The notes under the pieces were generated by a model. That model saw only the letters and a program-made list of their open reading frames with translations, was not told the origin of the DNA and did no database searches. Of a stretch of DNA of 64,000 nucleotides, positions 4,132 to 46,077 are shown piece after piece. The position numbers and the translations under genes are program-made. The stretch lies in NCBI RefSeq assembly GCF_000585375.1, contig NZ_KK073874.1, positions 4,929,251-4,993,250 of the forward strand, given 5' to 3'. Within the stretch, counting starts at the first letter, position 1, and each line of letters begins with the position of its first letter. The stretch comes from Cryptosporangium arvum DSM 44712 (lineage in GTDB: Bacteria > Actinomycetota > Actinomycetes > Mycobacteriales > Cryptosporangiaceae).

Positions 4132-5997
4132 ATGCTGACCGTCGACACGGTGCCCGATCTGCTGCGTGGGGCGGCGGCCCGGTTCGGGCCCGCGACCGCG
4201 ATCGCCGACGGGGCGGAGCGGGTGAGCCACGTCGACCTGCTCGAGCGGGTCCGCGCGGCCGGCCGAGCGTATCTCGCCGCCGGCGTGCGCCCCGGTGACC
4301 GAATCGCGGTGTGGGCGAGAAACCGGCCGGAGTTCGTGGTCGCGCTGCTCGGCGCCGAGTACGTAGGGGTGGCGGTGGTTCCGCTGAACACCCGCTTCCG
4401 CGGCCACGAGGCGGCCCACATCCTGCGGCGCTCCCGCGCGGTCGCCCTGGTGGTGGACGACGGCTTCCTCGCCACCGACTACCTCGGCATGCTCCGCGCG
4501 GCCGCCGCGGAACCCTCCCCCGCCGGCGGAGAACAAGCGCCGCCCGCAGGCGGCGAACACCCGCCACCCGCAAGCGCAGAACATCCGCCGCCCGCCGAGA
4601 GCCGTCCCGCCGGTGCACGCGACCCGGCGGCGGTCGCCGCGGGTGCCGTCGCCGCCCGGGCCGCCGGCGCCGGAGCCGCCGCCGCACGCACCGCCCGCGC
4701 GGCGAGCGCAGGCGTCGCCGGAGGCGGAGACTCCCCGGTGGACGCGGCGCCCGCGAGCGCCGCGGCGGACGTGCCCGGCGAGGTGGGCGAACGCCTGCCG
4801 GTCCCCGGGCTGCCGCACCTGCGGGTGGTGGTCGAGCTGGGAAGCGAGGTCCCGGACGGCGCCGTCGGGTGGGAGGACTTTCTCGCCGCCGGAAACACCG
4901 TGCCGGCCGCTGACGTGGAGGCCGCCGCGGACGGGGTCACGCCGGAGACGGTGTGCGACGTGCTCTTCACCTCGGGCACCACCGGGGTGCCCAAAGGCGT
5001 CATGAGCAGCCATCGTCAGACGCTCAGCGTGGCCGCGGTCTGGGCGCGCGGCGCCGGGCTGAGCCCGGACGACCGGTACGCGATCGTGAACCCGTTCTTC
5101 CACAGCTTCGGCTACAAAGCCGGCATCGTCGCGGCGATCACCGGTGGGGCCACGATCCACCCGGTGCCGGTGTTCGACCCCGGGGCGGTGCTGAGCCTGA
5201 TCGAACGCGAGCGCATCACCGTGCTGCCGGGGGCGCCCACGATCTTCACGACGCTGATCAACCATCCGGACCGCGAGAGCTACGACCTCTCGAGCCTGCG
5301 TTTCTCGATCGCGGGCGCCGCGTCCGTTCCCGAGAACCTGTTCCCGAACATGCGTGAGATCCTCGGCTTCGATCAGGTCGCGCAGGCCTACGGGCTCACC
5401 GAGTGCGTCGTGGCGACCCAGTCACGGCCCGGCGAGGACCTGGCGCACATCGCCGAGACCACCGGGCCTGCGGTGCCGGGGCTGGAGATCCGCATCGTCG
5501 CCCCCGACGGCACCGAAGCGCCCACCGGCGCCGACGGGGAGATCCGGATCCGCGGCGCGAACGTCATGCTCGGCTACTTCGAGGACCCCGGGGCGACGAG
5601 CGCCGCGATCGACCCCGACGGCTGGCTCCACACCGGTGACCAGGGTCGCAAGGACGAGCACGGCTGCGTGACGATCACCGGCCGGATCAAGGACATGTAC
5701 ATCGTCGGCGGGTTCAACGTGTACCCGGCCGAGGTGGAGAACGTGCTCGCCGCGCATCCGGACGTGATGGAGGCGGCGGTCGTCGGGGTGCCGGACGCGC
5801 GGCTGGGGGCGGTCGGCCGTGCGTACGTCATCGCCCGGCCGGGTACCGCCCCGGCCGCGGAGGCGCTCGTCGCGTTCTGCCGCGAGCGGATCGCCAACTT
5901 CAAGGTGCCGAGCGAGGTCGTGTTCCTCGCCGAGCTCCCCCGCAACGCCGGCGGCAAGGTCCTCAAACGCGTCCTCGCCGGCGAGGACACCCCCTGA
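4132..5997 (+). CDS. fadD3: Acyl-CoA synthetase, FadD3-like (HIP-CoA ligase), with 90-residue insertion
   Basis: ANL-superfamily ligase of 621 residues. The AMP-binding P-loop LFTSGTTGVPKGV is at about 277-289, followed by NPFFHSFGYKAGIVAA (a FadD3-like stretch), the YGLTE motif, GWLHTGDQGRKDEHG, and a C-terminal catalytic Lys in NAGGKVLKR. FadD3 activates HIP with ATP and CoA and so starts C/D-ring degradation; its product is the KstR2 inducer. The usual length is near 510. The excess is an Ala/Pro/Gly-rich segment at about residues 124-213, between two beta-strands of the N-terminal domain, with imperfect repeats (PAGGEQAPP, PAGGEHPPP, PASAEHPPP). A GGGAGG-like Shine-Dalgarno precedes the ATG. 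Placement opposite kstR2 with a KstR2 box supports the symbol. Confidence 0.83.
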   Translation: MLTVDTVPDLLRGAAARFGPATAIADGAERVSHVDLLERVRAAGRAYLAAGVRPGDRIAVWARNRPEFVVALLGAEYVGVAVVPLNTRFRGHEAAHILRRSRAVALVVDDGFLATDYLGMLRAAAAEPSPAGGEQAPPAGGEHPPPASAEHPPPAESRPAGARDPAAVAAGAVAARAAGAGAAAARTARAASAGVAGGGDSPVDAAPASAAADVPGEVGERLPVPGLPHLRVVVELGSEVPDGAVGWEDFLAAGNTVPAADVEAAADGVTPETVCDVLFTSGTTGVPKGVMSSHRQTLSVAAVWARGAGLSPDDRYAIVNPFFHSFGYKAGIVAAITGGATIHPVPVFDPGAVLSLIERERITVLPGAPTIFTTLINHPDRESYDLSSLRFSIAGAASVPENLFPNMREILGFDQVAQAYGLTECVVATQSRPGEDLAHIAETTGPAVPGLEIRIVAPDGTEAPTGADGEIRIRGANVMLGYFEDPGATSAAIDPDGWLHTGDQGRKDEHGCVTITGRIKDMYIVGGFNVYPAEVENVLAAHPDVMEAAVVGVPDARLGAVGRAYVIARPGTAPAAEALVAFCRERIANFKVPSEVVFLAELPRNAGGKVLKRVLAGEDTP

Positions 5998-6007
5998 CCA
6001 GCGCGGG

Positions 6008-7039
6008 TCACATCGTCACGACGACCAGTGGCGCGCCCGGTGCGGCGGCCGCGTCCATCGCCGCCGGGAGTTCCGCCAGCGGGAAGGACGCGGCCGGGAT
6101 CGCCCCCAAATCGAGCAGACCGGCCGCGACCAGGGTCAGCAGGCGCGCCGGCGCGTCGTCGGGGTACATGAAGTTGCCGATGATCTCGGTGCCGGCGAGC
6201 ATCAGCGCCGTGTAGTCGATCGGCAGCGGGGCGCTCGCGCTGCCCATCAGCACGAGGCGGCCGGTTCGTCGCAGGGCGGCGAGGGCCGCGAGCGTGCTGT
6301 CCGGGCTGACGGCGCCGCCGACGAGATCGAGCGCGAGGTCGACCGGACCCCCGGCCGCCGCGCGCAGGGCGTCGGCATCAGCGGGAACGGAACCGGTGAG
6401 CCGGACCGGCACCACCCGCTCCAGCGCCGCGAGGCGCTCCAGGACGGCCGGGTTGCGCCCGGCGGCGACCACCCTGGCGGCGCCGAGAGCCTTCGCGACG
6501 TGGACGCCGGCCGAACCGAACGCGCCGGTGGCCCCGTTGACGACGACGGTCTCGCCCGGCGTGAGCCGTCCGCGCAGCAGGCCGCCGTACGGGACGAGGC
6601 AGCGGGTGACCGCGACGACGTCACCGAGCCCGGCGGGGACCGGGGTCACCGTCGACACCGGCGCGACGACCTTCTCGGCGAGCGTGCCGTCGCGCCACGT
6701 GTCGCGTACCGCCGGCGTCTCCGACGTGAGGCCGATCAGGCCCCGGGCGGGGTCCGGGACGTTCTCGGCCGCGGTGTAGTTGCCGGTGACCAGCACGCGC
6801 TGCCCGGTGGCCAGCGTGAACACACCCCGGCCGACCCGCTCGACGACGCCCACCCCGCTGGTGCCCGGCGTGAACGGGCCGGTGGGCCGGTGGTAGTGGC
6901 GCAGCGTCCCGGCCACGTACGCGCGGAAGTAGCTCAGGATCGGTGCCGCCTCCAGCCGCACCACGACCGCGCCGTCCGGTGGCTCCGGGTCGGGCACGTC
7001 GCCGAACGTGAGGGTCGCGTCGAGCCGCCAGGCTTTCAC
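6008..7039 (-). CDS. Zinc-independent MDR alcohol dehydrogenase / quinone oxidoreductase
   Basis: About 343 residues of the medium-chain dehydrogenase/reductase superfamily. There is a GroES-like N-terminal domain (PGTSGVGVVERVGRGV) and an NAD(P)-binding Rossmann domain with NGATGAFGSAGVHVAKALGA. The structural-zinc Cys cluster is not seen, which favours a quinone-oxidoreductase-like or zinc-free member. I chose the GTG giving VKAWRLDA because homologues begin here, although GGGAGG lies only one base from it; an in-frame ATG at 7078 would add 13 residues. It is divergent from a LysR regulator 73 bp away, so it is the likely target of that regulator. The substrate is unknown. It is convergent with fadD3 and probably not part of the steroid cluster. 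Confidence 0.75.
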   Translation of the reverse strand: MKAWRLDATLTFGDVPDPEPPDGAVVVRLEAAPILSYFRAYVAGTLRHYHRPTGPFTPGTSGVGVVERVGRGVFTLATGQRVLVTGNYTAAENVPDPARGLIGLTSETPAVRDTWRDGTLAEKVVAPVSTVTPVPAGLGDVVAVTRCLVPYGGLLRGRLTPGETVVVNGATGAFGSAGVHVAKALGAARVVAAGRNPAVLERLAALERVVPVRLTGSVPADADALRAAAGGPVDLALDLVGGAVSPDSTLAALAALRRTGRLVLMGSASAPLPIDYTALMLAGTEIIGNFMYPDDAPARLLTLVAAGLLDLGAIPAASFPLAELPAAMDAAAAPGAPLVVVTM

Positions 7040-37174: not shown

Positions 37175-39913
37175 TCACCGGGTGAGTTTGCCGGTGCTGG
37201 TGAAGGCGTTCGCGTCGGCCTCGTAGAGCCACATCGTCGGCACGGCCAGGTCGCCCAGCTCGTTGAACTTCAGGCGCTTGGTCAGCCCGTCGGCGTCGTA
37301 GCGGTTGACGAAGTCGAGCATGTCCTTCCTGGTCTGCTTGCCGGCCGCGATGCCGTCGAGCATGATCGTCGCCGCGTCGTAGGCCTCGGCGGCGTAGCGT
37401 CCCGGCTCGGTGCCGTACTTCGCGGCGTAGGCGACCCGGAACTCGGCCGGGACCTCCTTCTCCGGCATGTACGGGCCGAAGAGCACGGTGCCGGCCGCGG
37501 AGTCCCCGGCCTCGGTGAAGAACGCCGGGTCGTCGATCTCGGAGGTCCCGACGAGCCGGATGTCCCGCCCGCCGACCTCGGTGAGCGCCCTCCGGAGCTG
37601 CCCGGCGAGGGCCGGCGCTCCGACGTAGACCACGGCCGTGGCCCCGGACCGGATGATCTTCGCCGCGGACCCGCCGAGCCCGTCCCGGCTCACGGTCTCC
37701 GAACCGGCCCAGGCCCGCGCCTCCTCCAGGCCGCCGCGAAAATATCCGGCGAGCTTGCGGCCGTGCGCGGAGCCGTCGTCGGTGAGGTAGACCTTTGTCG
37801 CCTTCAGCGTGTCGACCAGGTACTTGCGCGCGAACAGGTTGGGGGAATCCTCGTCGCCGATGACCTGGTGGAACGTCTTCCACTGGGCGAGCGCGTCGGC
37901 GTCGCCGACCGGCGTGATCTGGGCGAGCCCGGCCGCGTCGTAGACCTTGCCGGCGGCCGCGAGCTCCGCGGGGCGCAGTGGCCCGACCACGCCGACCGTG
38001 GTGGGGTTCCCGGCGACGTTCGCCGCGAACTCGGCGGCTTTCTTCTCGTCGCCGGCGGTGTCGAAGCTGGTGAGCGTGACGGCACAGTCGGCGCTCTTCG
38101 CGTTGTGGTCGGCGACCGCGAGCTCGACGCCGTTGCGGATCCGGAGGCCGAGGTCGGCGCCGTCGCCGGTCGACGCGCCGATGAAGGCCAGCTCGGCGGC
38201 GCAGGGCGGGGCTCCGGCGTCGTAGGCGTTGGTGTCGCCGCTGTCGTTCTCGGCCGCGAACATGTCGCGGAGGAACAGCCCGCCGCCGCAGAGCACGAGG
38301 ACCAGCACCATGGCCGCCGCGACGATCGCGACGATCCGCCCCGCCCCCGCTTTCCGGCGCGGCCGCTCCCCTCCCGGCGCCCCGCCGGCCGCCGCCCCGT
38401 GCACCCCCGCCCCCGACCCGGCCCCGTGCGCACCCGGCTCCTGCGCGCCCGACTCATGCGCGCCCGACGCGTGCGCACCCGACTCGCGCACCCCGGACCC
38501 GGACCCGCGCACCCCGGACCCAGGCACCCCGGACCCAGGCACCCCGGACCCAGGCCCTCCGCCCCCGTGCACCCCGGACCCGGCACCCTGCGCACCGGAA
38601 CCACCCCCGTGCGCACCCGCCCCCGACACCCCGCCGTGCGCCCCGGCACCCTGCGGCCGCGCGATGATCGGCGGCCGGGGCGGCGGCACCGGCGCCCCGG
38701 AGGCCGCAGAAGTCCCCCCGGCCCCGGACCCGGGCACCGTTCCGTACGCATCCGAGATCCGCCCCGGCCGGGGCGGCGCCCCACCCGCCCCCACCCCCGG
38801 CGGCGACACCGGCGGAGACATCGGCGGAGCGACCGGCGCGGCCGCGCCGACGATGATCGCGCCCTGCGCGACCACGAGCTCCGGGTTCTCCACCACCGTC
38901 GGCGCGATCCCGAGGTACTCGTGCAGCAGCGCCGACACCAGCGGTATCCGGCTCGACCCACCCACCAGCAGCACCGCCGCCAGTCCACCGGACGGCGTCT
39001 CGGCGGCACGCAGCGACTCCAGCGTCGTGCCGACGGTCTGGTTCAGCAGCGGCCGCGCGAGCGCGTCGAGCTGCTCCCGGCCGAGCGGCAGGTCGTCGTC
39101 GAGCAGCGGCACGTGGATGTGGACGGACGTCGTGCGCGAGAGCGTCTCCTTGGCTTGCCGCACGTCCTCCCAGAGCAGCCGCGACTCGCGCCGGTCGGAC
39201 GCGGTCATCGGCGTCTTCAGCCGCTCCCAGACCGGCGCGGCCCGGTCGCCGAGCAGTACGCCGAGGTGCTCGAAGATCGCAGCGTCGACGTCGAGCCCGC
39301 CGACGTCGTCGAGCCCCTGGTAGGCCACGACGTCGAAGCCCATCGGCGTCCGGCGCACGACGGTGGCGTCGAACGTGCCGCCGCCGAAGTCGTAGACGAC
39401 CATGCTCTGCCCCGGCGCCACCGACACCCGCGGCAGCGCCACGAAGCTGTACGCGGCCGCGACCGGCTCCGGCACCAGCAGCGCCGACGGGATCCCGGCG
39501 ATCGCCGCCGCCTGACGCAGCAGATCGAGCCGGCGGGGGCCCCAGGCCACCGGGTGGGTCAGCACGACCTGTTCGGGCTGGCGGCCCTTGGCCCGGCGCG
39601 CCTCGGCCATCACCCGCGAGAGCACCGCGGCCAGCAGTTGCGGCACCGGCACCTCGTGCCCGCCGAGCAGCACGGTGCCGTCGTCGATGCGCCGCTTCGG
39701 GTTCGGTTCGAACGCCTCGGGCCGGGTGCGTGCGACGTGGGCGGCGTCCCGGCCGGTCAGGAACTGCCCGTTCTCGTCCAGGCAGACGCCGGAGAGCAGC
39801 ATCGGCGAGCCGTCGAACAGCAGGGATTCGCTCCTGCCGTCGGGATACCGGAGCACACCGACGGTGTTCGACGTCCCGAAGTCGATCCCGATCAAGTACC
39901 CGGATAACGGCAT
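37175..39913 (-). CDS. Hsp70 (DnaK-like) ATPase - membrane helix - extracellular substrate-binding domain fusion
   Basis: 912 residues. Residues 5-372 form an Hsp70/actin-type nucleotide-binding domain: GIDFGTSNTVGV (phosphate-1), MVVYDFGGGTFDATVV (phosphate-2), VLLVGGSSRIPLVSALLHEYLG (adenosine). The peptide-binding domain of DnaK is absent. A Pro/Gly/Ser/His-rich linker (about 375-520; GAHGGGSGAQG, PGSGVPGSGV units) leads to one membrane helix (about 526-547, VAIVAAAMVLVLVLCGGGLFL). Outside the cell, residues about 565-905 resemble branched-chain-amino-acid-type binding proteins (IRNGVELAVADHNAK, VGVVGPLRPAELAAAGKVYDAAGLAQITP, AAEAYDAATIMLDGIAAGK). This looks like a transmembrane receptor that couples ligand binding outside to an Hsp70-type ATPase inside. 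The ATG at 39913 puts the first strand of the ATPase at residue 6. It is divergent from the CBS/FHA-fusion operon. Confidence 0.85.
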   Translation of the reverse strand: MPLSGYLIGIDFGTSNTVGVLRYPDGRSESLLFDGSPMLLSGVCLDENGQFLTGRDAAHVARTRPEAFEPNPKRRIDDGTVLLGGHEVPVPQLLAAVLSRVMAEARRAKGRQPEQVVLTHPVAWGPRRLDLLRQAAAIAGIPSALLVPEPVAAAYSFVALPRVSVAPGQSMVVYDFGGGTFDATVVRRTPMGFDVVAYQGLDDVGGLDVDAAIFEHLGVLLGDRAAPVWERLKTPMTASDRRESRLLWEDVRQAKETLSRTTSVHIHVPLLDDDLPLGREQLDALARPLLNQTVGTTLESLRAAETPSGGLAAVLLVGGSSRIPLVSALLHEYLGIAPTVVENPELVVAQGAIIVGAAAPVAPPMSPPVSPPGVGAGGAPPRPGRISDAYGTVPGSGAGGTSAASGAPVPPPRPPIIARPQGAGAHGGVSGAGAHGGGSGAQGAGSGVHGGGGPGSGVPGSGVPGSGVRGSGSGVRESGAHASGAHESGAQEPGAHGAGSGAGVHGAAAGGAPGGERPRRKAGAGRIVAIVAAAMVLVLVLCGGGLFLRDMFAAENDSGDTNAYDAGAPPCAAELAFIGASTGDGADLGLRIRNGVELAVADHNAKSADCAVTLTSFDTAGDEKKAAEFAANVAGNPTTVGVVGPLRPAELAAAGKVYDAAGLAQITPVGDADALAQWKTFHQVIGDEDSPNLFARKYLVDTLKATKVYLTDDGSAHGRKLAGYFRGGLEEARAWAGSETVSRDGLGGSAAKIIRSGATAVVYVGAPALAGQLRRALTEVGGRDIRLVGTSEIDDPAFFTEAGDSAAGTVLFGPYMPEKEVPAEFRVAYAAKYGTEPGRYAAEAYDAATIMLDGIAAGKQTRKDMLDFVNRYDADGLTKRLKFNELGDLAVPTMWLYEADANAFTSTGKLTR

Positions 39914-40068
39914 ACCCGGCAGCTTATCGACTACTCGCTGCTCAACTTTCACGGATGCCACAGCATGAATCAGCCGCGCATCGTCCGAAAGGTCGCTTGT
40001 CCTCACCGCCCCGGCGACGCACGCTGGACCGGCCACTCCCCGACAGTCCGGGCCGTCCAGGGGGAAAC

Positions 40069-40512
40069 GTGCTGGTGCGGGACGTCATGACCAGATTTCC
40101 GGCGTGCATCCATCTCGGTGCGGACATCCGCCGCGCCGCCGAGCTGGTCAGCGTCTCCCAGATCAGCGAGCTGATGGTGCTCGACCACGACGACGCGTTC
40201 GTCGGCGCGCTCAGCGAGGGCGATCTGATCCGGGCGGTGCTGCCGAGCTACGACGAGGCCCTGCGCGCGGGCGGGTCGCTCGACGACGCGTTCGGCGATC
40301 TGAGCCGCAAAGCCCGCGACCTCGCCGACCGCCCGATCGACCCGCTCGTCGTCCGCGACGCGATCACGCTGCGCCCCGACGACGACGTGGCCCGGGCCGC
40401 GGTCGTGATGACCGAGAAACAGATCCGCCGCCTGCCGGTCGTCGAGGGACGCACGCTGCACGGCACGGTGGCCCGCTCCGACATCTGCCGCGCCGTCATC
40501 TACCACGCCTGA
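40069..40512 (+). CDS. Tandem CBS-domain protein
   Basis: 147 residues forming a CBS pair: VRDVMTRFPACIHLGADIRRAAELV with SELMVLDHDDAFVGALSEGDLIRAVLP, then VRDAITLRPDDDVARAAVVMTEKQIRRLPVVEGRTLHGTVARSDICRAV. Between them are about 30 residues (YDEALRAGGSLDDAFGDLSRKARDLADRP) also seen in other stand-alone actinobacterial CBS proteins. Such pairs bind adenosine nucleotides and act as energy sensors. The GTG is preceded by GGGGGA. The stop overlaps the next start (TGATG), so it is co-translated with the FHA-heme-reductase fusion and may regulate it. Confidence 0.85.
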   Translation: MLVRDVMTRFPACIHLGADIRRAAELVSVSQISELMVLDHDDAFVGALSEGDLIRAVLPSYDEALRAGGSLDDAFGDLSRKARDLADRPIDPLVVRDAITLRPDDDVARAAVVMTEKQIRRLPVVEGRTLHGTVARSDICRAVIYHA

Positions 40513-43500
40513 TGACGCGCCTGCGGCTGGTGTTCACGAACCGGCGTACCGGTGCGGTCGCCGAGCACACCGGGGAGCTGCCGCTCTCGGTGGGCCGCGA
40601 CGCGACACGCAGTGACGTCGCGATCGACGACCGGTCGGTGTCGCGCCGCCACGCGCGGTTCGAGCTCGACGGCGACGACCTGGTCGTCACCGACCTGGAC
40701 AGCTCCAACGGGACGTTCGTCAACGGCGGCTGGATCCGCAGGCACGTGCTGCGGACCGGCGACCGCCTCGGCATCGGCGCCAGCACCGTCGAGTGGACGC
40801 TCGTCGTCGAACCGGAGCCGCTCAGCGACGAGACCCGCATCGGCGCGGGCATGACGATGATCGCGCCCTTCCTCCCGCCGGCCCCGGGTCGCCGCGTCTC
40901 CCCCGCCCGGCGGGTCGTCGAGGCCGCCGAGGCCTACAACCGCGAGCAGGGCCACGAGCTCGACGGCTTCCTCTCGCTCGAGTACGGGTTCCTCCCGGTC
41001 GAGCCACCGCTGCGGGCGCTGCCGGAGTCGCACCGGGCCTGGGACGACCTCGTCGACCGGCTCCCCGCCCTGTACGCGAGCCTCGAGCTGCGGGCCGAGT
41101 TCGACCGGCTGCCGGTGCTGGACGCCGACGCGCTGCCCGACAAGTACCTGCTCCGCGCGTCGGTCCTGCTCGGCGTGTTCGCGCACGCCTACCAGTACGT
41201 GCGCACCGAGCCGCCGCCCGCGCTACCGCCGAGCATCCTGCTCCCCTGGCGGCAGGTGTCGCGGCGGCTGGGCAAGGACGTCCCTTCGGTCTCCTACATC
41301 GACCTGTTCTTCTACAACTGGAAGCTGCGCGAGGACACCGGGCCCCGGCGCCTGGCCAACCTGGAGCTGCTCGTCCCGGCCTGGCGCAACCGGGCCGAGG
41401 AAGTCTTCTACCTGGTCACGACCGAGTTCGCGATGGAGCTCACCCCAGTTCTCGACGCGATGCTGCGGGCCCAGGACGCCGTGCTCGCCGAGGACGCCAC
41501 GGCCCTGGAACCGGCGTTGCTGACGATGCTCGAGCGCCTGCACCACGTCACGCGGACCATCTATCCGCAGATCGACCCGAACCCGCGGTCGGAGTCGCAT
41601 CTCGACCTGGTGCTGTGGGCGAAGACCGTCGGCACGTCGGGGGTACCGATCTTCGACGGCGCGCCGAGCCCGGCCGGCACCGCCCAGCCGCAGATCCACG
41701 CGCTCGACGCGTTCTTCGGCCGGGCGTCGTACTCGTCCACGGTCGGGCAGCAGAGCCTCGCCCTGCGCGCGCAGATGCCCCGGCACTGGCGGGAGCTCGT
41801 CGAGGCGCTCGGCGCGGTCTCGGTGCGCGACTTCGTGGAGCGGCCCGGGAACACCGCGCTGCGCGGGCTGTACGCGGCGGTGCTCGACGCGTATCTCGGG
41901 GACCGGGGCTGGATGGGCCTGCACCGGATCAAGGCCTACGGGTTCCTCGAGGTCGCGTTCAAGGTCGGCCGGTCGGTCACCACCGGCGCGAAGTTCACCG
42001 GCCTGTTCCGCGACAAGACGTGGGAGGCGATCGACCGCGAGCTCGCCGAGGTCCGCGACGAACGCTGGCCGGCCGGCAACCAGCAGGTCTACTTCGGCCG
42101 GGTCCGGCGCGGCACCACCACGACCGATCCCGGCTCCGCGGCCTGGACCACCCACCTGCGCCTCGACGTCGCCGGGCAAGGCATCCGGTACCAGCCCGGC
42201 GACCGGCTCGGCGTACTGCCCGAGAACGACGACGCGCTGGTGCGCGCCACGCTGCGCGCGCTGCGGGCCACCGGCGACGAGCTCGTGCAGCTGCCGGCCG
42301 AGTGGCGCGAGGCGGTGCGCTTCCGCGCGGGCTACGAGGACGGCACCGAGGTGCTGCCGCTCGCGACGCTGCTCACGTTCGGGCGCATCCGGCCGGTGGG
42401 CCGCACCAACGCCAAACGCCTGCTCGCGCTCTCCGGCGCCGGGGCGCTGGCGCGGATCGTCGCCGCGCGGATGGAGGACCAGTGGGAGCTGTGGGACGTC
42501 CTGGACCTGGTGCGCACGGCCGGCTACGACGTCACCCGGCTCTGGTCGGCGGGCGCCGGTGAGGCCGAGAACATCGGCCGGATCGTGCCGCCGGAGGTGT
42601 TCCGGCTGTACTCGATCGCGTCGGCCGCCGACGGGCCCGCGGAGTCGATCGACCTGGTCGTCGGCGGCCTGACCTACACCAGCCCGCACACCACCGTCTC
42701 CTACGAGCGGCGCCGGACCGGCAGCGCGTCGCACTTCCTGCGGCGCATGTCCAGCGACGTGCGGTACCGCGAGAAGCGACTGTCGCTCACGATCGTGCCG
42801 ACGCCCCGGTTCCGGCTGCCGGCCGACCCGGCCACCCCGGTCGTGATGTTCGCCGCCGGCTCCGGGGTGGCGCCGTTCCACGGGTTCGCGCGGGCCCGCG
42901 CGGCCGGCCCCGGTCCGAACTGGCTGTTCCTGGGGCTGCGCCGGCCGGACGACTTCGTGCACCCGGAGGACTTCGCCCGGCTCGCGGCGGACGGCCGGCT
43001 CGAGCTGCGGGCGGCGTTCTCCCAGGCCGACAACGCGCTGCGCTACGACGTCGGCACCGGCGCTTTTGTAGTGGGAGACGGAACCCGGCAGCGCGTGGAC
43101 CGGCTGATGACCGCGGAGGCCGACGCCCTGCGCGCGGCCGTGGACGGCGACGCGCACCTGTACGTGTGCGGGAGCGCCGGGTTCGCCGGTTCGGTACTGG
43201 ACACCCTGCGCGAACTCGGGGTCGACGTCCGGCAGCTGATCGCGCGGGGACGGCTCGGGCTCGACATCTTCACGACCTACCGCGGCCACGCGCAGCAGGG
43301 CGCCCGGTACGACATCTCGGCGTTGATCGAGCACAACACCGCCGAGGCCGGTTTCTGGATGGGGGTCGGCGGCAAGGTCTACGACGTCTCGGAGTTCATC
43401 CACCTGCACGTGGGTGGGCCGCAGATCATCCAGCACTACGTCGGGATGGACGCGACCTCGGCGTACCGGGGGGTGCTGCACGACCAGAACTCCGAAGTCG

Positions 43501-44234
43501 ACGCCCAGCTGAGCCTGTACGAGCTCGGCCACCTGCGCCGCCTGGACTTCGGCGGGCGCTGGGGCGTGGTGCTGGGCGCGGACGGGCTGCGCTTCGCCGG
43601 CCTCGAGGAGCTGTTCACGACCTGGGTGCGGTACGTGTACCTGGTCGTGGCGATGGAGAACGCGCTCGTCAACGACTACGGGTTCGCCGGGACCGCGGCC
43701 ACCGCCGGGCCGCCGCCCTCCGAGCTGACGCCGTTCAAGCTGCAGTTCCTCCTGGAGGCCCACCGCCGGTTCCGGGTGAGTTACCTCGCCGGGCTGGTCG
43801 GTGAGGATCTGACCGCGCTCTGGCGGATGACCGTGGGGTTCTGCGCGCCGGACCGGGACGTGCGTGCGCTGCGCGGCGTCGAGCCGGTGCCCGACGCCGG
43901 GGCGTCCGTGCGGGACCTGCTCACCAGCGGGGCCGACCGGGCCCGTGTGGTGGAGGTGGTGCAGGGGTACGCGGCCGCGGACCAGGCCGTGCTCCACGCG
44001 GTGAAGGGCGCGTTACGCGACGGGATCCGCGCGTTCGAGGAGTGCGAGGCCACGGTGGTCGAACGGGCCGGTGGCCGGCTGCTCGCGGCGATCGAGGCGG
44101 TGCTCGACGCGGTCGAGGACTACCACCGGCGGCTGGACACCATGGTCGGAGCCCACGGCTTCACGCCGGCCGCCGACCCGCCGATCCCCCCGGATCGCGG
44201 TGTCCCCGGCCACGGCACGCCGCGGGCCCACTGA
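40512..44234 (+). CDS. FHA - IDO/PrnB-like heme domain - FAD/NADPH reductase - cytochrome b5 multidomain protein
   Basis: 1240 residues. FHA domain, 1-100: GR at 28-29, SRRH at 44-47, N66-G-T. A linker with DETRIGAGMT follows. Residues about 135-510 resemble the IDO/TDO superfamily, nearest PrnB: SYIDLFFYNWKL, LERLHHVTRTIYPQIDPNP, VGQQSLALRAQMP and LHRIKAYGFLEVAFKVG, with His471 a candidate proximal heme ligand. Residues about 523-900 form a CPR/FNR-type reductase: YQPGDRLGVLPEN, RLYSIAS (698-704, FAD), GSGVAP (783-788, NADPH), YVCGSAGF (884). No flavodoxin domain is present. Residues about 925-1000 are cytochrome b5-like: GGKVYDVSEFIHLHVGG and H990; His966 and His990 are 24 apart as in microsomal b5. 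A helical C-terminus ends it. Electrons could pass NADPH-FAD-b5-heme within one chain. The substrate is unknown; the IDO/PrnB call is the least certain. Confidence 0.78.
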   Translation: MTRLRLVFTNRRTGAVAEHTGELPLSVGRDATRSDVAIDDRSVSRRHARFELDGDDLVVTDLDSSNGTFVNGGWIRRHVLRTGDRLGIGASTVEWTLVVEPEPLSDETRIGAGMTMIAPFLPPAPGRRVSPARRVVEAAEAYNREQGHELDGFLSLEYGFLPVEPPLRALPESHRAWDDLVDRLPALYASLELRAEFDRLPVLDADALPDKYLLRASVLLGVFAHAYQYVRTEPPPALPPSILLPWRQVSRRLGKDVPSVSYIDLFFYNWKLREDTGPRRLANLELLVPAWRNRAEEVFYLVTTEFAMELTPVLDAMLRAQDAVLAEDATALEPALLTMLERLHHVTRTIYPQIDPNPRSESHLDLVLWAKTVGTSGVPIFDGAPSPAGTAQPQIHALDAFFGRASYSSTVGQQSLALRAQMPRHWRELVEALGAVSVRDFVERPGNTALRGLYAAVLDAYLGDRGWMGLHRIKAYGFLEVAFKVGRSVTTGAKFTGLFRDKTWEAIDRELAEVRDERWPAGNQQVYFGRVRRGTTTTDPGSAAWTTHLRLDVAGQGIRYQPGDRLGVLPENDDALVRATLRALRATGDELVQLPAEWREAVRFRAGYEDGTEVLPLATLLTFGRIRPVGRTNAKRLLALSGAGALARIVAARMEDQWELWDVLDLVRTAGYDVTRLWSAGAGEAENIGRIVPPEVFRLYSIASAADGPAESIDLVVGGLTYTSPHTTVSYERRRTGSASHFLRRMSSDVRYREKRLSLTIVPTPRFRLPADPATPVVMFAAGSGVAPFHGFARARAAGPGPNWLFLGLRRPDDFVHPEDFARLAADGRLELRAAFSQADNALRYDVGTGAFVVGDGTRQRVDRLMTAEADALRAAVDGDAHLYVCGSAGFAGSVLDTLRELGVDVRQLIARGRLGLDIFTTYRGHAQQGARYDISALIEHNTAEAGFWMGVGGKVYDVSEFIHLHVGGPQIIQHYVGMDATSAYRGVLHDQNSEVDAQLSLYELGHLRRLDFGGRWGVVLGADGLRFAGLEELFTTWVRYVYLVVAMENALVNDYGFAGTAATAGPPPSELTPFKLQFLLEAHRRFRVSYLAGLVGEDLTALWRMTVGFCAPDRDVRALRGVEPVPDAGASVRDLLTSGADRARVVEVVQGYAAADQAVLHAVKGALRDGIRAFEECEATVVERAGGRLLAAIEAVLDAVEDYHRRLDTMVGAHGFTPAADPPIPPDRGVPGHGTPRAH

Positions 44235-44448: not shown

Positions 44449-44868
44449 GTGCGCCTCAACCGCTCCACCGACATCGGCCTGCGTGTCCTGATGCTCGGCG
44501 CCGCCCGTGACCGGCTGCTGACCATCGACGAACTGGCCGAATCCCTCGACGTACCGCGCCACCACCTGGCCAAGGTGGTCCAGCGCCTGCAGCACCTGGA
44601 GCTGCTGGAGACCGTGCGCGGCCGCAGCGGCGGGGTCCGGCTCGCCGCCGCGGCCCGCTCGGCGTCGGTCGGTGGCATCGTGCGCGAGCTGGAGGGCGAG
44701 ACGGAGGTCGTCGACTGCGACGGCTGTCCGCTCAACTCCGGCTGCCGGCTGCGCCGGGCGCTGCGAGCCGCGCAGGAGGCGTTCTACGTCAGCCTCGACC
44801 CGATCACGGTCGAGGAACTCACCGGGCCACCGACCGAGCAGATCCTGCTCGCGCTCGGCCGGGCCTGA
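44449..44868 (+). CDS. nsrR: Rrf2-family iron-sulfur repressor NsrR
   Basis: 139 residues with an Rrf2 winged helix (RSTDIGLRVLMLGAARDRLLTIDELAESLDVPRHHLAKVVQRLQ, by position 5-48), wing LETVRGRSGGVRLA and a C-terminal cluster-binding loop VDCDGCPLNSGC. NsrR binds an iron-sulfur cluster that reacts with nitric oxide, releasing DNA and derepressing NO-detoxification genes. The Cys spacing here is C-x2-C-x5-C, tighter at the first pair than the spacing I associate with IscR-type members. Context is decisive: the NO dioxygenase gene follows 18 bp later and an NsrR-like palindrome precedes. The GTG has no clear Shine-Dalgarno, so the transcript may be leaderless. Confidence 0.88.
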   Translation: MRLNRSTDIGLRVLMLGAARDRLLTIDELAESLDVPRHHLAKVVQRLQHLELLETVRGRSGGVRLAAAARSASVGGIVRELEGETEVVDCDGCPLNSGCRLRRALRAAQEAFYVSLDPITVEELTGPPTEQILLALGRA

Positions 44869-44886
44869 ATCCCACCGGGAGGATCC

Positions 44887-46077
44887 ATGCTCTCCGCTGC
44901 CAGCGCCCCGATCGTCGAGGCGACGCTGCCGATCGTCGGCGCGCACCTCGGCGCGATCTCCGGTGTCTTCTACGACACCATGCTGGCCGAGAACCCCGAG
45001 CTGCGGAATCTGTTCAGCCGCAGCGCCCAGGCGACCGGCGAGCAGAAGAACGCGCTCGCCGGGGCGGTCGCGGCCTACGCGGCCCACCTGACCGGCACCG
45101 GCCCCGACGCGCGGGTGTTCGACCACCTCGTCGAGCGGATCGCCCAGCGGCACTGCGCGCTCGGCATCCGCGCCGAGCAGTACACGCTGGTCGGGCGGTA
45201 CCTGCTCGGCGCCGTCCACACCGTGCTGGGCGACGCGGTGACGCCGGAGATCGCCGCGGCCTGGGACGAGGTCTACTGGCTGTTCGCGACCCGGCTGATC
45301 GGCCGCGAGGCACGTCTCTACGCCCGGGCCGACGTCGACACCGGGTCACCGTGGCAGGAGTACACGGTCGTCACCACGGTCGCCGAGGCCCACGACACGG
45401 TCTCGTTCGTGCTGGCGCGCTCCGACGGCGCACCGGCCCCGGCGTTCCGCCCCGGTCAGTACGTCACGGTCGCGGCCGACCTGCCCGACGGCACCCGTCA
45501 GCTGCGTCAGTATTCGCTCTCGCAGGCGCCCGGGCACACGCTGCGCATCACGGTCCGCCACGTCCCCGGCGGCGCCGTGTCCGGCTACCTGCACGAGCAC
45601 GTGTCGGCCGGCGACACCCTGCGGCTGAGCCGCCCGTTCGGCGACCTCGTCCTGCGCGACGACGACTCGCCGCTGGTGCTGGTCAGCGCGGGCGTCGGAA
45701 TCACGCCGATGGCCTCGATGCTCGACCACGTGGCCCGCAGCCGGCCGTCGCGCGAGGTCGTCGCGGTACACGCCGACCGCAGCCCGGACCGGCACGCGCT
45801 GCGTACCGAGCTGGCCGCGTCCGGCGCCCGGCTGCGCTCGTTCCGGAGCCTGACCTGGTACGAGGAGTCCGGTGTCCCGGGAGCCCGGACGGGGCTCGTC
45901 GACCCCGACGCCATCCCGGTGCCCGACGACGCCGAGGTGTACCTGTGCGGGCCGGTGCCGTTCATGGCCGCGGTGCGGGCGGGGCTGCGCAGCCGCGGCG
46001 TCTCCGAGGACCGCATCCGGTACGAGGTGTTCGGCTCCGAGCAGTGGAACACCACGCCGCGCGCGGTGCCGGCCTGA
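44887..46077 (+). CDS. hmp: Flavohemoglobin / nitric oxide dioxygenase
   Basis: 396 residues. The N-terminal globin (1-138) has the proximal His in LVERIAQRHCALGI and the distal region ISGVFYDTML. The FAD domain (about 150-255) has FRPGQYVTVAAD and RQYSLSQAP. The NAD domain has LVSAGVGITPMASML and VYLCGPVPFMAAV. Length and order are those of Hmp, which turns NO plus O2 into nitrate with NAD(P)H. GGGAGG precedes the ATG. It is the second gene of the nsrR-hmp operon, which ends at a strong hairpin shared with the convergent TPR gene. Confidence 0.93.
   Translation: MLSAASAPIVEATLPIVGAHLGAISGVFYDTMLAENPELRNLFSRSAQATGEQKNALAGAVAAYAAHLTGTGPDARVFDHLVERIAQRHCALGIRAEQYTLVGRYLLGAVHTVLGDAVTPEIAAAWDEVYWLFATRLIGREARLYARADVDTGSPWQEYTVVTTVAEAHDTVSFVLARSDGAPAPAFRPGQYVTVAADLPDGTRQLRQYSLSQAPGHTLRITVRHVPGGAVSGYLHEHVSAGDTLRLSRPFGDLVLRDDDSPLVLVSAGVGITPMASMLDHVARSRPSREVVAVHADRSPDRHALRTELAASGARLRSFRSLTWYEESGVPGARTGLVDPDAIPVPDDAEVYLCGPVPFMAAVRAGLRSRGVSEDRIRYEVFGSEQWNTTPRAVPA

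Follow-up and report, generated by a model that had tools for sequence, protein, structure and literature searches.

A putative signal-gated, self-sufficient aromatic oxygenase of the IDO family encoded by a bacterial fusion of FHA, IDO-type, reductase and cytochrome b5 domains

A stretch of 64,000 nucleotides from Cryptosporangium arvum DSM 44712 (the window; assembly GCF_000585375.1, contig NZ_KK073874.1, positions 4,929,251 to 4,993,250 of the forward strand) contains a gene whose single product joins an FHA domain, a heme domain of the indoleamine 2,3-dioxygenase (IDO) type, an FAD/NADPH reductase module, a cytochrome b5 domain and a C-terminal helical domain. The domain matches and the predicted model support the proposal of the initial annotation that this protein, hereafter the fusion, carries its own NADPH–FAD–b5 route beside an IDO-type heme domain on one chain. 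Sequence comparison suggests that the fusion is most likely an IDO-type aromatic oxygenase, signal-gated and self-sufficient, rather than the kynurenine enzyme. No description of such a fusion was found in the literature searched, which covers few subscription papers, consistent with the earlier remark that no characterised protein with this domain order was known.

The gene opens with an ATG at 40512, ends with a stop codon at 44232–44234 and encodes 1240 residues with zero internal stops, and the frame and coordinates first assigned to it are correct (Table 1). A domain search recovered the four predicted parts in the predicted order, each above its curated Pfam cut-off. Besides the FHA domain, these were the IDO domain (PF01231, residues 155–350, 115.3 bits vs. 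a cut-off of 26), FAD_binding_1 (residues 523–597, 46.2 bits, cut-off 32.3) with NAD_binding_1 (residues 779–895, 31.8 bits, cut-off 22), and Cyt-b5 (residues 939–994, 47.1 bits, cut-off 23.7). The initial list had omitted the conserved C-terminal helical domain; all the other modules belong to known families. Neither a flavodoxin nor a globin family is among the nine Pfam rows at E ≤ 1. The AlphaFold2 model of residues 121–1217, calculated from a 41-row alignment and leaving out the FHA domain because of length, had a mean predicted local distance difference test score (pLDDT) of 88.9 and a predicted template modelling score (pTM) of 0.88. For the C-terminal domain, the AlphaFold2 prediction of residues 1004–1217 reached a pLDDT of 91.8 and a pTM of 0.88; no PDB match was found for it by Foldseek at E ≤ 0.001, and the best VIA Z of 8.0 has little meaning for helical bundles.

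The IDO domain was analyzed by fold, profile and phylogeny. An IDO-type fold had been predicted for residues 135–510, and the model agrees with it: model residues 5–402 (protein 125–522) matched IDO2 with a VIA Z of up to 36.1 (2.3 Å over 345 residues) and IDO1 with a Z of up to 34.9. A profile of eight fusion-family IDO domains, searched against PDB sequences, matched IDO2 and IDO1 chains at E values of 1.5e-30 to 2.7e-25 (93–110 bits), and with a profile built from six canonical IDOs of bacteria the same chains scored 316–337 bits. The two profiles aligned to each other by hhalign with a probability of 100 (E 2.5e-41). In the tree, the 28 fusion-family rows stood apart from the six canonical rows with support of 100/100 and long branches. 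Because of these profile scores, the profile–profile match and the separation in the tree, the fusion family represents, by sequence, a divergent branch within the IDO family. The initial annotation had placed this region closest to PrnB of pyrrolnitrin synthesis, for which the sequence gave no support: only IDO1 and IDO2 chains scored better than E 0.2 against PDB sequences, no PrnB-named chain was among the 28 chains up to E 10, and the Pfam search at E ≤ 1 listed no PrnB family. By fold, PrnB was absent among the best 50 matches listed, which excludes nothing. The accessible part of a published account counts PrnB and IDO, which share a superfamily, among its most closely related members (PMC11791213).

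Conservation of the active site was assessed in an alignment (A3) of 41 rows, the fusion included. The proximal heme ligand position, His471, is occupied by histidine in 41/41 rows, and Asp264, Asn269, Trp270, Phe299, Val367, Trp369, Lys371, Val373, Gly389, Asp399, Gly486, Arg487 and Thr490 are likewise invariant; Glu305 is kept in 40/41. Judged from the alignment, Trp369, Lys371, Thr490 and Glu305 probably line the distal pocket. In a profile alignment, the family stretch D-L/P-V-L/V-W-A-K-T-V-G/A falls onto the canonical D-H/P-Y-x-x-x-H-R-x-R, and position 374, aligned with Arg231 of IDO1, is Ala in 28 and Gly in 13 of the 41 rows, vs. an invariant Arg in 6/6 canonical bacterial IDOs. Arg231 of IDO1 binds the L-Trp carboxylate, according to the accessible part of a study on the roles of Arg231 and Thr379 (PMC5758539). 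By alignment, then, the position of the tryptophan carboxylate clamp appears to be lost in the fusion family. Thr490 stands in a T-x-G-G/A setting beyond the stretch aligned by hhalign and may correspond to Thr379 of IDO1 (GTGG motif), with a shorter preceding loop. The spacing from His471 to Thr490 is 19 residues, vs. 33 between His346 and Thr379 of IDO1. Furthermore, Gly389, Thr390 and Ala391 occur in 41/41, 39/41 and 30/41 rows, respectively.

As initially proposed, the reductase module is of the type of NADPH-cytochrome P450 reductase (CPR) and lacks a flavodoxin domain. Its nearest relatives are CysJ and CPR; CysJ was the best PDB match by sequence (E 1.7e-25), and model residues 345–800 (protein 465–920) matched CysJ with a fold Z of 36.7. 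Among the 35 rows of A3 that include the reductase, Arg698, Gly783, Gly785, Phe789, Cys886 and Gly887 are kept in 35, and Tyr700, Ser701 and Pro788 in 34. The Ser-Arg pair, which presumably binds the NADPH phosphate in CPR, is Ser in 29 and Thr in six rows at its first position, and Arg in 30 and Gln in five at its second, with Gln in the fusion itself. In the b5 domain, His966, Gly968 and Gly969 of the H-x-G-G motif are present in 41/41 rows and His990 in 40/41, with a gap at locus L081, in line with the two heme ligands, 24 residues apart, assigned from the start.

A scan of genome contigs with the IDO-domain alignment returned 54 related loci in five phyla, a lower bound because the scan used a single peptide pattern. 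Within the genus, a full-length gene occurs in two of four genomes, host included, and the orthologue is 78% identical to the fusion. Together with the 54 loci, this orthologue places the fusion pattern far beyond chance. PF01231 itself is rare in the sampled genomes (14/394 in the class and 4/396 in the phylum, canonical stand-alone IDOs included). The relatives lie in Streptosporangiaceae, Micromonosporaceae genera, Geodermatophilaceae, Streptomyces and Nitriliruptoraceae, and further in Ktedonospora and Anaerolineae-type Chloroflexota, Myxococcota, metagenome-assembled genomes (MAGs) of Aquimarina and Saprospiraceae and one Pseudomonadota MAG. No plasmid-borne relative was found at E 1e-20 in the plasmid collection searched.

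Domain composition was assigned with profiles built from eight members, three of which appear identical to the genes at L047, L052 and L094 and thus score highly by construction. The full order FHA–IDO–reductase–b5–C-terminal domain was found in 25 of the 54 loci, namely L041–L064 (24 loci from Ktedonospora, Streptosporangiaceae-type and Micromonosporaceae-type genera) and L066, an Anaerolineae MAG. Another 20 loci carry IDO–reductase–b5–C-terminal domain without a recognised FHA domain, including L087, which begins inside the IDO domain so that its N-terminus lies outside the view, and six carry IDO–b5–C-terminal domain without a reductase. Three were not judged for b5 (L079 and L088 at a contig edge; L080 with a broken frame). 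The frames that reach the C-terminal domain thus comprise 45 IDO–reductase–b5 and six IDO–b5 proteins. Since b5 is present in 51/51, even in the six reductase-free loci, its association with the IDO domain is stricter than that of the reductase. After removal of near-copies and broken rows, the alignments held 41 (A3) and 28 (A5) of 58 loci and 36 rows (A4); the 58 are the 54 scan loci, the host locus, L031, L038 and L039. The reductase-free clade had support of 81/94, and the deep branching of the tree is without resolution. The Chloroflexota isolate Ktedonospora formicarum (L041) carries the full FHA form and groups with the host, Streptosporangiaceae and Micromonosporaceae rows in a seven-row FHA clade (100/100), which suggests horizontal transfer. 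In three Myxococcota loci (L065, L084 and L091), the N-terminal ~200 residues of an otherwise equal IDO–reductase–b5 chain form a gamma-glutamyl-cyclotransferase-like (GGACT/AIG2) domain that replaces the FHA domain, which may hint that the substrate is a gamma-glutamyl compound or an amine.

The fusion is the sole PF01231 match in the host genome. Elsewhere in that genome (C1:2431813–2433808), a gene of the tryptophan 2,3-dioxygenase (TDO) family is directly followed by a kynureninase-like gene, which scored 236.8 bits, just below the curated cut-off of 246.4. Among 18 other genomes carrying the fusion family, hand-picked rather than random (15 from the 54 loci plus G001, G554 and G574), 16 had a match to the TDO family PF03301: 13 of 14 with the reductase form and three of four with the reductase-free form. 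G574 has a canonical IDO in addition. These genes make a role of the fusion as a kynurenine-pathway enzyme unlikely. In the accessible part of a review, TDO and IDO are described as mutually exclusive in bacteria (PMC4191572); the fusion family breaks this exclusivity, as an enzyme with another job would.

Upstream, the stop codon of a CBS-domain gene (TGA, 40510–40512) overlaps the ATG of the fusion (40512–40514) by one base, and a same-strand upstream CBS-domain gene was detected by tblastn in 40/58 loci. The 18 loci without a match comprise the six reductase-free loci, the three GGACT fusions, seven Bacteroidota loci and two with little upstream sequence (L081 and L087, where 342 and 2 bases, respectively, precede the IDO domain, so that a CBS gene is hardly detectable). 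In place of the CBS gene, a DsbA-like gene lies close by in the seven Bacteroidota loci; in six of these it is the immediate same-strand upstream neighbour. Within the fusion, the FHA domain keeps the GR, SRRH and SNGT residues, which we take to be the usual FHA motifs. FHA and CBS families are associated with Ser/Thr phosphorylation and adenine-nucleotide-type ligands, respectively, and their pairing here suggests control by both. Secondary-metabolism neighbours were found in three of the six reductase-free loci: HpaB and FAD_binding_3 oxygenase genes at L094; a ketosynthase piece, NmrA and an arylamine N-acetyltransferase-family gene at L082; and P450, TauD and type I polyketide synthase (PKS) genes at L085. 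The IDO–b5 proteins of these three loci may be tailoring oxygenases of natural products.

With modest confidence, we read the fusion as a heme-dependent aromatic oxygenase that belongs to the IDO family and is both self-sufficient and signal-gated. The domains, their order, the ligands, the predicted fold, the CBS neighbour, the loss of Arg231 by alignment and the co-occurrence with TDO-family genes come from sequence and prediction; from these we infer the electron path, the electron use per turnover, the substrate class and the gating. NADPH would reduce the FAD of the CysJ-like module, and electrons would go singly from FAD to the b5 heme, with b5 replacing the FMN domain of diflavin reductases. 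The b5 heme would then pass them to the His471-ligated IDO heme, keeping it or returning it ferrous, and the ferrous heme would bind O2 and oxidise an aromatic substrate, probably indole-like, without the tryptophan carboxylate clamp. A covalent NADPH–FAD–b5 chain fits either constant ferrous upkeep or electron use in each turnover, and we favour the second with moderate confidence: because the chain is built in, the electrons are probably spent in each turnover, in monooxygenation or a similar reaction, and not in priming alone. The FHA domain and the product of the overlapping CBS gene probably set when the enzyme works.

Four other readings were weighed against this one. If the chain only primes or re-reduces the heme, the fusion would be a self-sufficient indole- or tryptophan-type dioxygenase yielding a formylkynurenine-like product by 2,3-dioxygenation. 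Membership of the IDO family speaks for it, as do Thr490 and Gly389-Thr390-Ala391, which by alignment reading are similar to Thr379 and to the Gly-Ser-Ala loop on the distal side in IDO1, and IDO1 is supported in vitro by CPR, whether b5 is present or not (PMC13142367). However, the Ala/Gly at the Arg231 position in 41/41 rows, the TDO-family genes in the host and in 16 of the 18 other genomes, and the much shorter His471–Thr490 loop argue against a dioxygenase, which we consider unlikely. A PrnB-type rearrangement enzyme, as proposed in the initial annotation, would belong to the same superfamily, but PrnB is absent from the Pfam and PDB sequence matches within the thresholds given above. Moreover, in the accessible part of the account of that superfamily cited above, b5 and P450 reductase were among the systems that yielded no detectable PrnB product (PMC11791213). 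The electron supply had been taken to favour PrnB. It holds that dioxygenation by canonical IDO and TDO needs only the first electron, but the accessible part of a recent report describes a monooxygenase path in human IDO that depends on re-reduction during turnover (PMC12921851). A need for electrons is therefore not PrnB-specific and does not itself point to PrnB. This reading is the least probable of those considered.

The IDO domain could also act in a globin-like manner, binding O2 or nitric oxide (NO) while the reductase keeps it ferrous, either as an NO dioxygenase or as an O2, NO or redox sensor with FHA/CBS output. Heme plus reductase is the logic of flavohemoglobin, an abalone myoglobin homologous to IDO is known according to the accessible part of a review (PMC4191572), signalling domains surround the fusion family, and an Rrf2 regulator gene and a flavohemoglobin gene lie directly downstream of the fusion. 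By contrast, inspection by eye of the four predicted genes that follow the orthologue at L031 revealed no Rrf2–flavohemoglobin pair, the host already has a flavohemoglobin, the reductase-free L082 and L085 lie near PKS genes, and the probable distal-pocket residues are kept across phyla (Trp369, Lys371 and Thr490 in 41/41, Glu305 in 40/41), as for an organic substrate. A globin-like role therefore seems improbable. The NADPH–FAD–heme–heme content and the signalling partners would also suit a redox sensor or a protein of the NADPH oxidase type that makes superoxide or peroxide from O2, or a non-catalytic IDO domain that relays electrons. The heme ligand and pocket-type residues kept across phyla and the lack of a known acceptor speak against these readings, which we regard as highly improbable.

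Several points weigh against an electron-driven, signal-gated oxygenase. The cofactors, activity and structure of the fusion are predictions, nothing places b5 near either of its partners (FAD or the IDO heme), and the built-in reductase could serve only for priming or for repair of autoxidised heme. The equivalence to Arg231 was read from aligned profiles, in a short segment adjoining a gap, and does not come from superposed coordinates. The Pfam IDO match spans only profile positions 8–207 of 412 (to 337–341 in some relatives), and the C-terminal part of the IDO region is therefore strongly diverged. The initial annotation held that the FHA domain ties the enzyme to Ser/Thr phosphorylation; the domain does have the usual motifs, but profiles recognised it in only 25/54 loci, and FHA gating is therefore not general. 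In addition, G554 and G796 carry the fusion family without a PF03301 match, membership of PF03301 is no proof of TDO activity, and at the reductase-free L083, L086 and L092 no secondary-metabolism neighbours were recognised by eye, with no domain scan of these.

Table 1. Coordinates of the fusion gene, its predicted domains and the upstream gene in the window.
Feature	Position	Strand	Details
CBS-domain protein gene	40069..40512	+	147 aa from GTG; PF00571, two stretches
Fusion gene, FHA–IDO–reductase–cytochrome b5–C-terminal helical domain	40512..44234	+	Open frame, 1240 aa; Pfam domains; 78% identical genus orthologue
FHA domain	40587..40778	+	Residues 26–89; PF00498, 64.5 bits (cut-off 20.7)
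IDO domain	40905..42035	+	Residues 132–508; proximal heme ligand His471 at 41922–41924; PF01231
FAD/NADPH reductase module, CysJ/CPR type, no flavodoxin domain	42078..43256	+	Residues 523–915; PF00667, PF00175
Cytochrome b5 domain	43311..43541	+	Residues 934–1010; expected heme ligands His966 (43407–43409) and His990 (43479–43481); PF00173
C-terminal helical domain, no Pfam family	43599..44111	+	Residues ~1030–1200; kept among 36 aligned rows

Further observations concern the surroundings of the gene. In the Chloroflexota locus L070, the CBS gene product is a receiver-CBS protein, and a RidA-type gene (imine/enamine deaminase family) followed by the receiver-CBS gene, at 5707–6977, precedes the fusion. 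A RidA-type gene lies farther upstream in 11/58 loci, mostly of Chloroflexota and also at L073 and L038; these genes were domain-scanned in two loci, L070 and L071. At L027, L028 and L029, a stop codon within the terminal part of the CBS gene precedes the open frame of the fusion, and no ATG or GTG is present there; the start is perhaps an ATT. The Rrf2-family regulator gene and the flavohemoglobin gene that follows it occupy 44449–46077 of the window. NO detoxification, as read from this pair, was rejected because the pair was not seen by eye beside L031. On the reverse strand, 37175–40036 encodes an Hsp70-like protein whose C-terminal part bears a weak resemblance to a ligand-binding receptor (ANF_receptor, below cut-off). 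A defence system was also considered and rejected, as neither the fusion nor the CBS protein had a match in PADLOC.

We tentatively propose, with less than even confidence, a natural class of electron-driven, signal-gated IDO-type monooxygenases that spans at least five phyla of bacteria; in this class, b5 would be the dedicated donor of the IDO heme. If this is true, the class would be to IDO as P450 BM3 is to P450s, and b5 would be an ancestral or recurrent partner of IDO domains. The IDO family would also gain a branch that is regulated and apparently not of the kynurenine type. The fusion is relevant to the question of what supplies electrons to IDO enzymes, among them its relative, the human immune enzyme IDO, and a bacterial family in which a CPR-like FAD module and b5 are fused to an IDO domain provides comparative evidence for that pairing. 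Moreover, it offers a single protein for measuring electron transfer into an IDO heme and a test of IDO-type monooxygenation with controlled electron supply, to be compared with the path described in the accessible part of the report on human IDO (PMC12921851).

Compared with known systems, the fusion shares a His-ligated heme, an IDO-type fold and natural-product members with the heme-dependent aromatic oxygenase superfamily (TDO, MarE, PrnB, SfmD and TyrH), but none of these is described with its own NADPH–FAD–b5 chain in the accessible part of the published account (PMC11791213). With the IDO family (PF01231; human IDO1/IDO2 and bacterial IDO), it has in common the fold (Z 34.3–36.1, 2.2–2.9 Å over 338–354 residues among the matches listed), a score above the family cut-off and the proximal His, kept in all 41 fusion-family rows, whereas the fusion family has Ala/Gly at the Arg231 position and a fused reductase, b5 and C-terminal domain. 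CysJ and CPR resemble the FAD/NADPH half, CysJ being the best PDB match by sequence and fold, but the fusion has cytochrome b5 instead of an FMN/flavodoxin domain. Flavohemoglobin likewise couples a heme domain to an FAD–NAD(P)H reductase, whereas the fusion has no globin family row and carries FAD_binding_1 rather than FAD_binding_6. Finally, P450 BM3, a self-sufficient P450, also combines an oxygenase and an NADPH reductase on one chain, and its FAD domain appears in the list of fold matches; in contrast to the Cys-ligated P450 heme and FMN of BM3, the fusion has a His-ligated IDO-type heme domain and b5.

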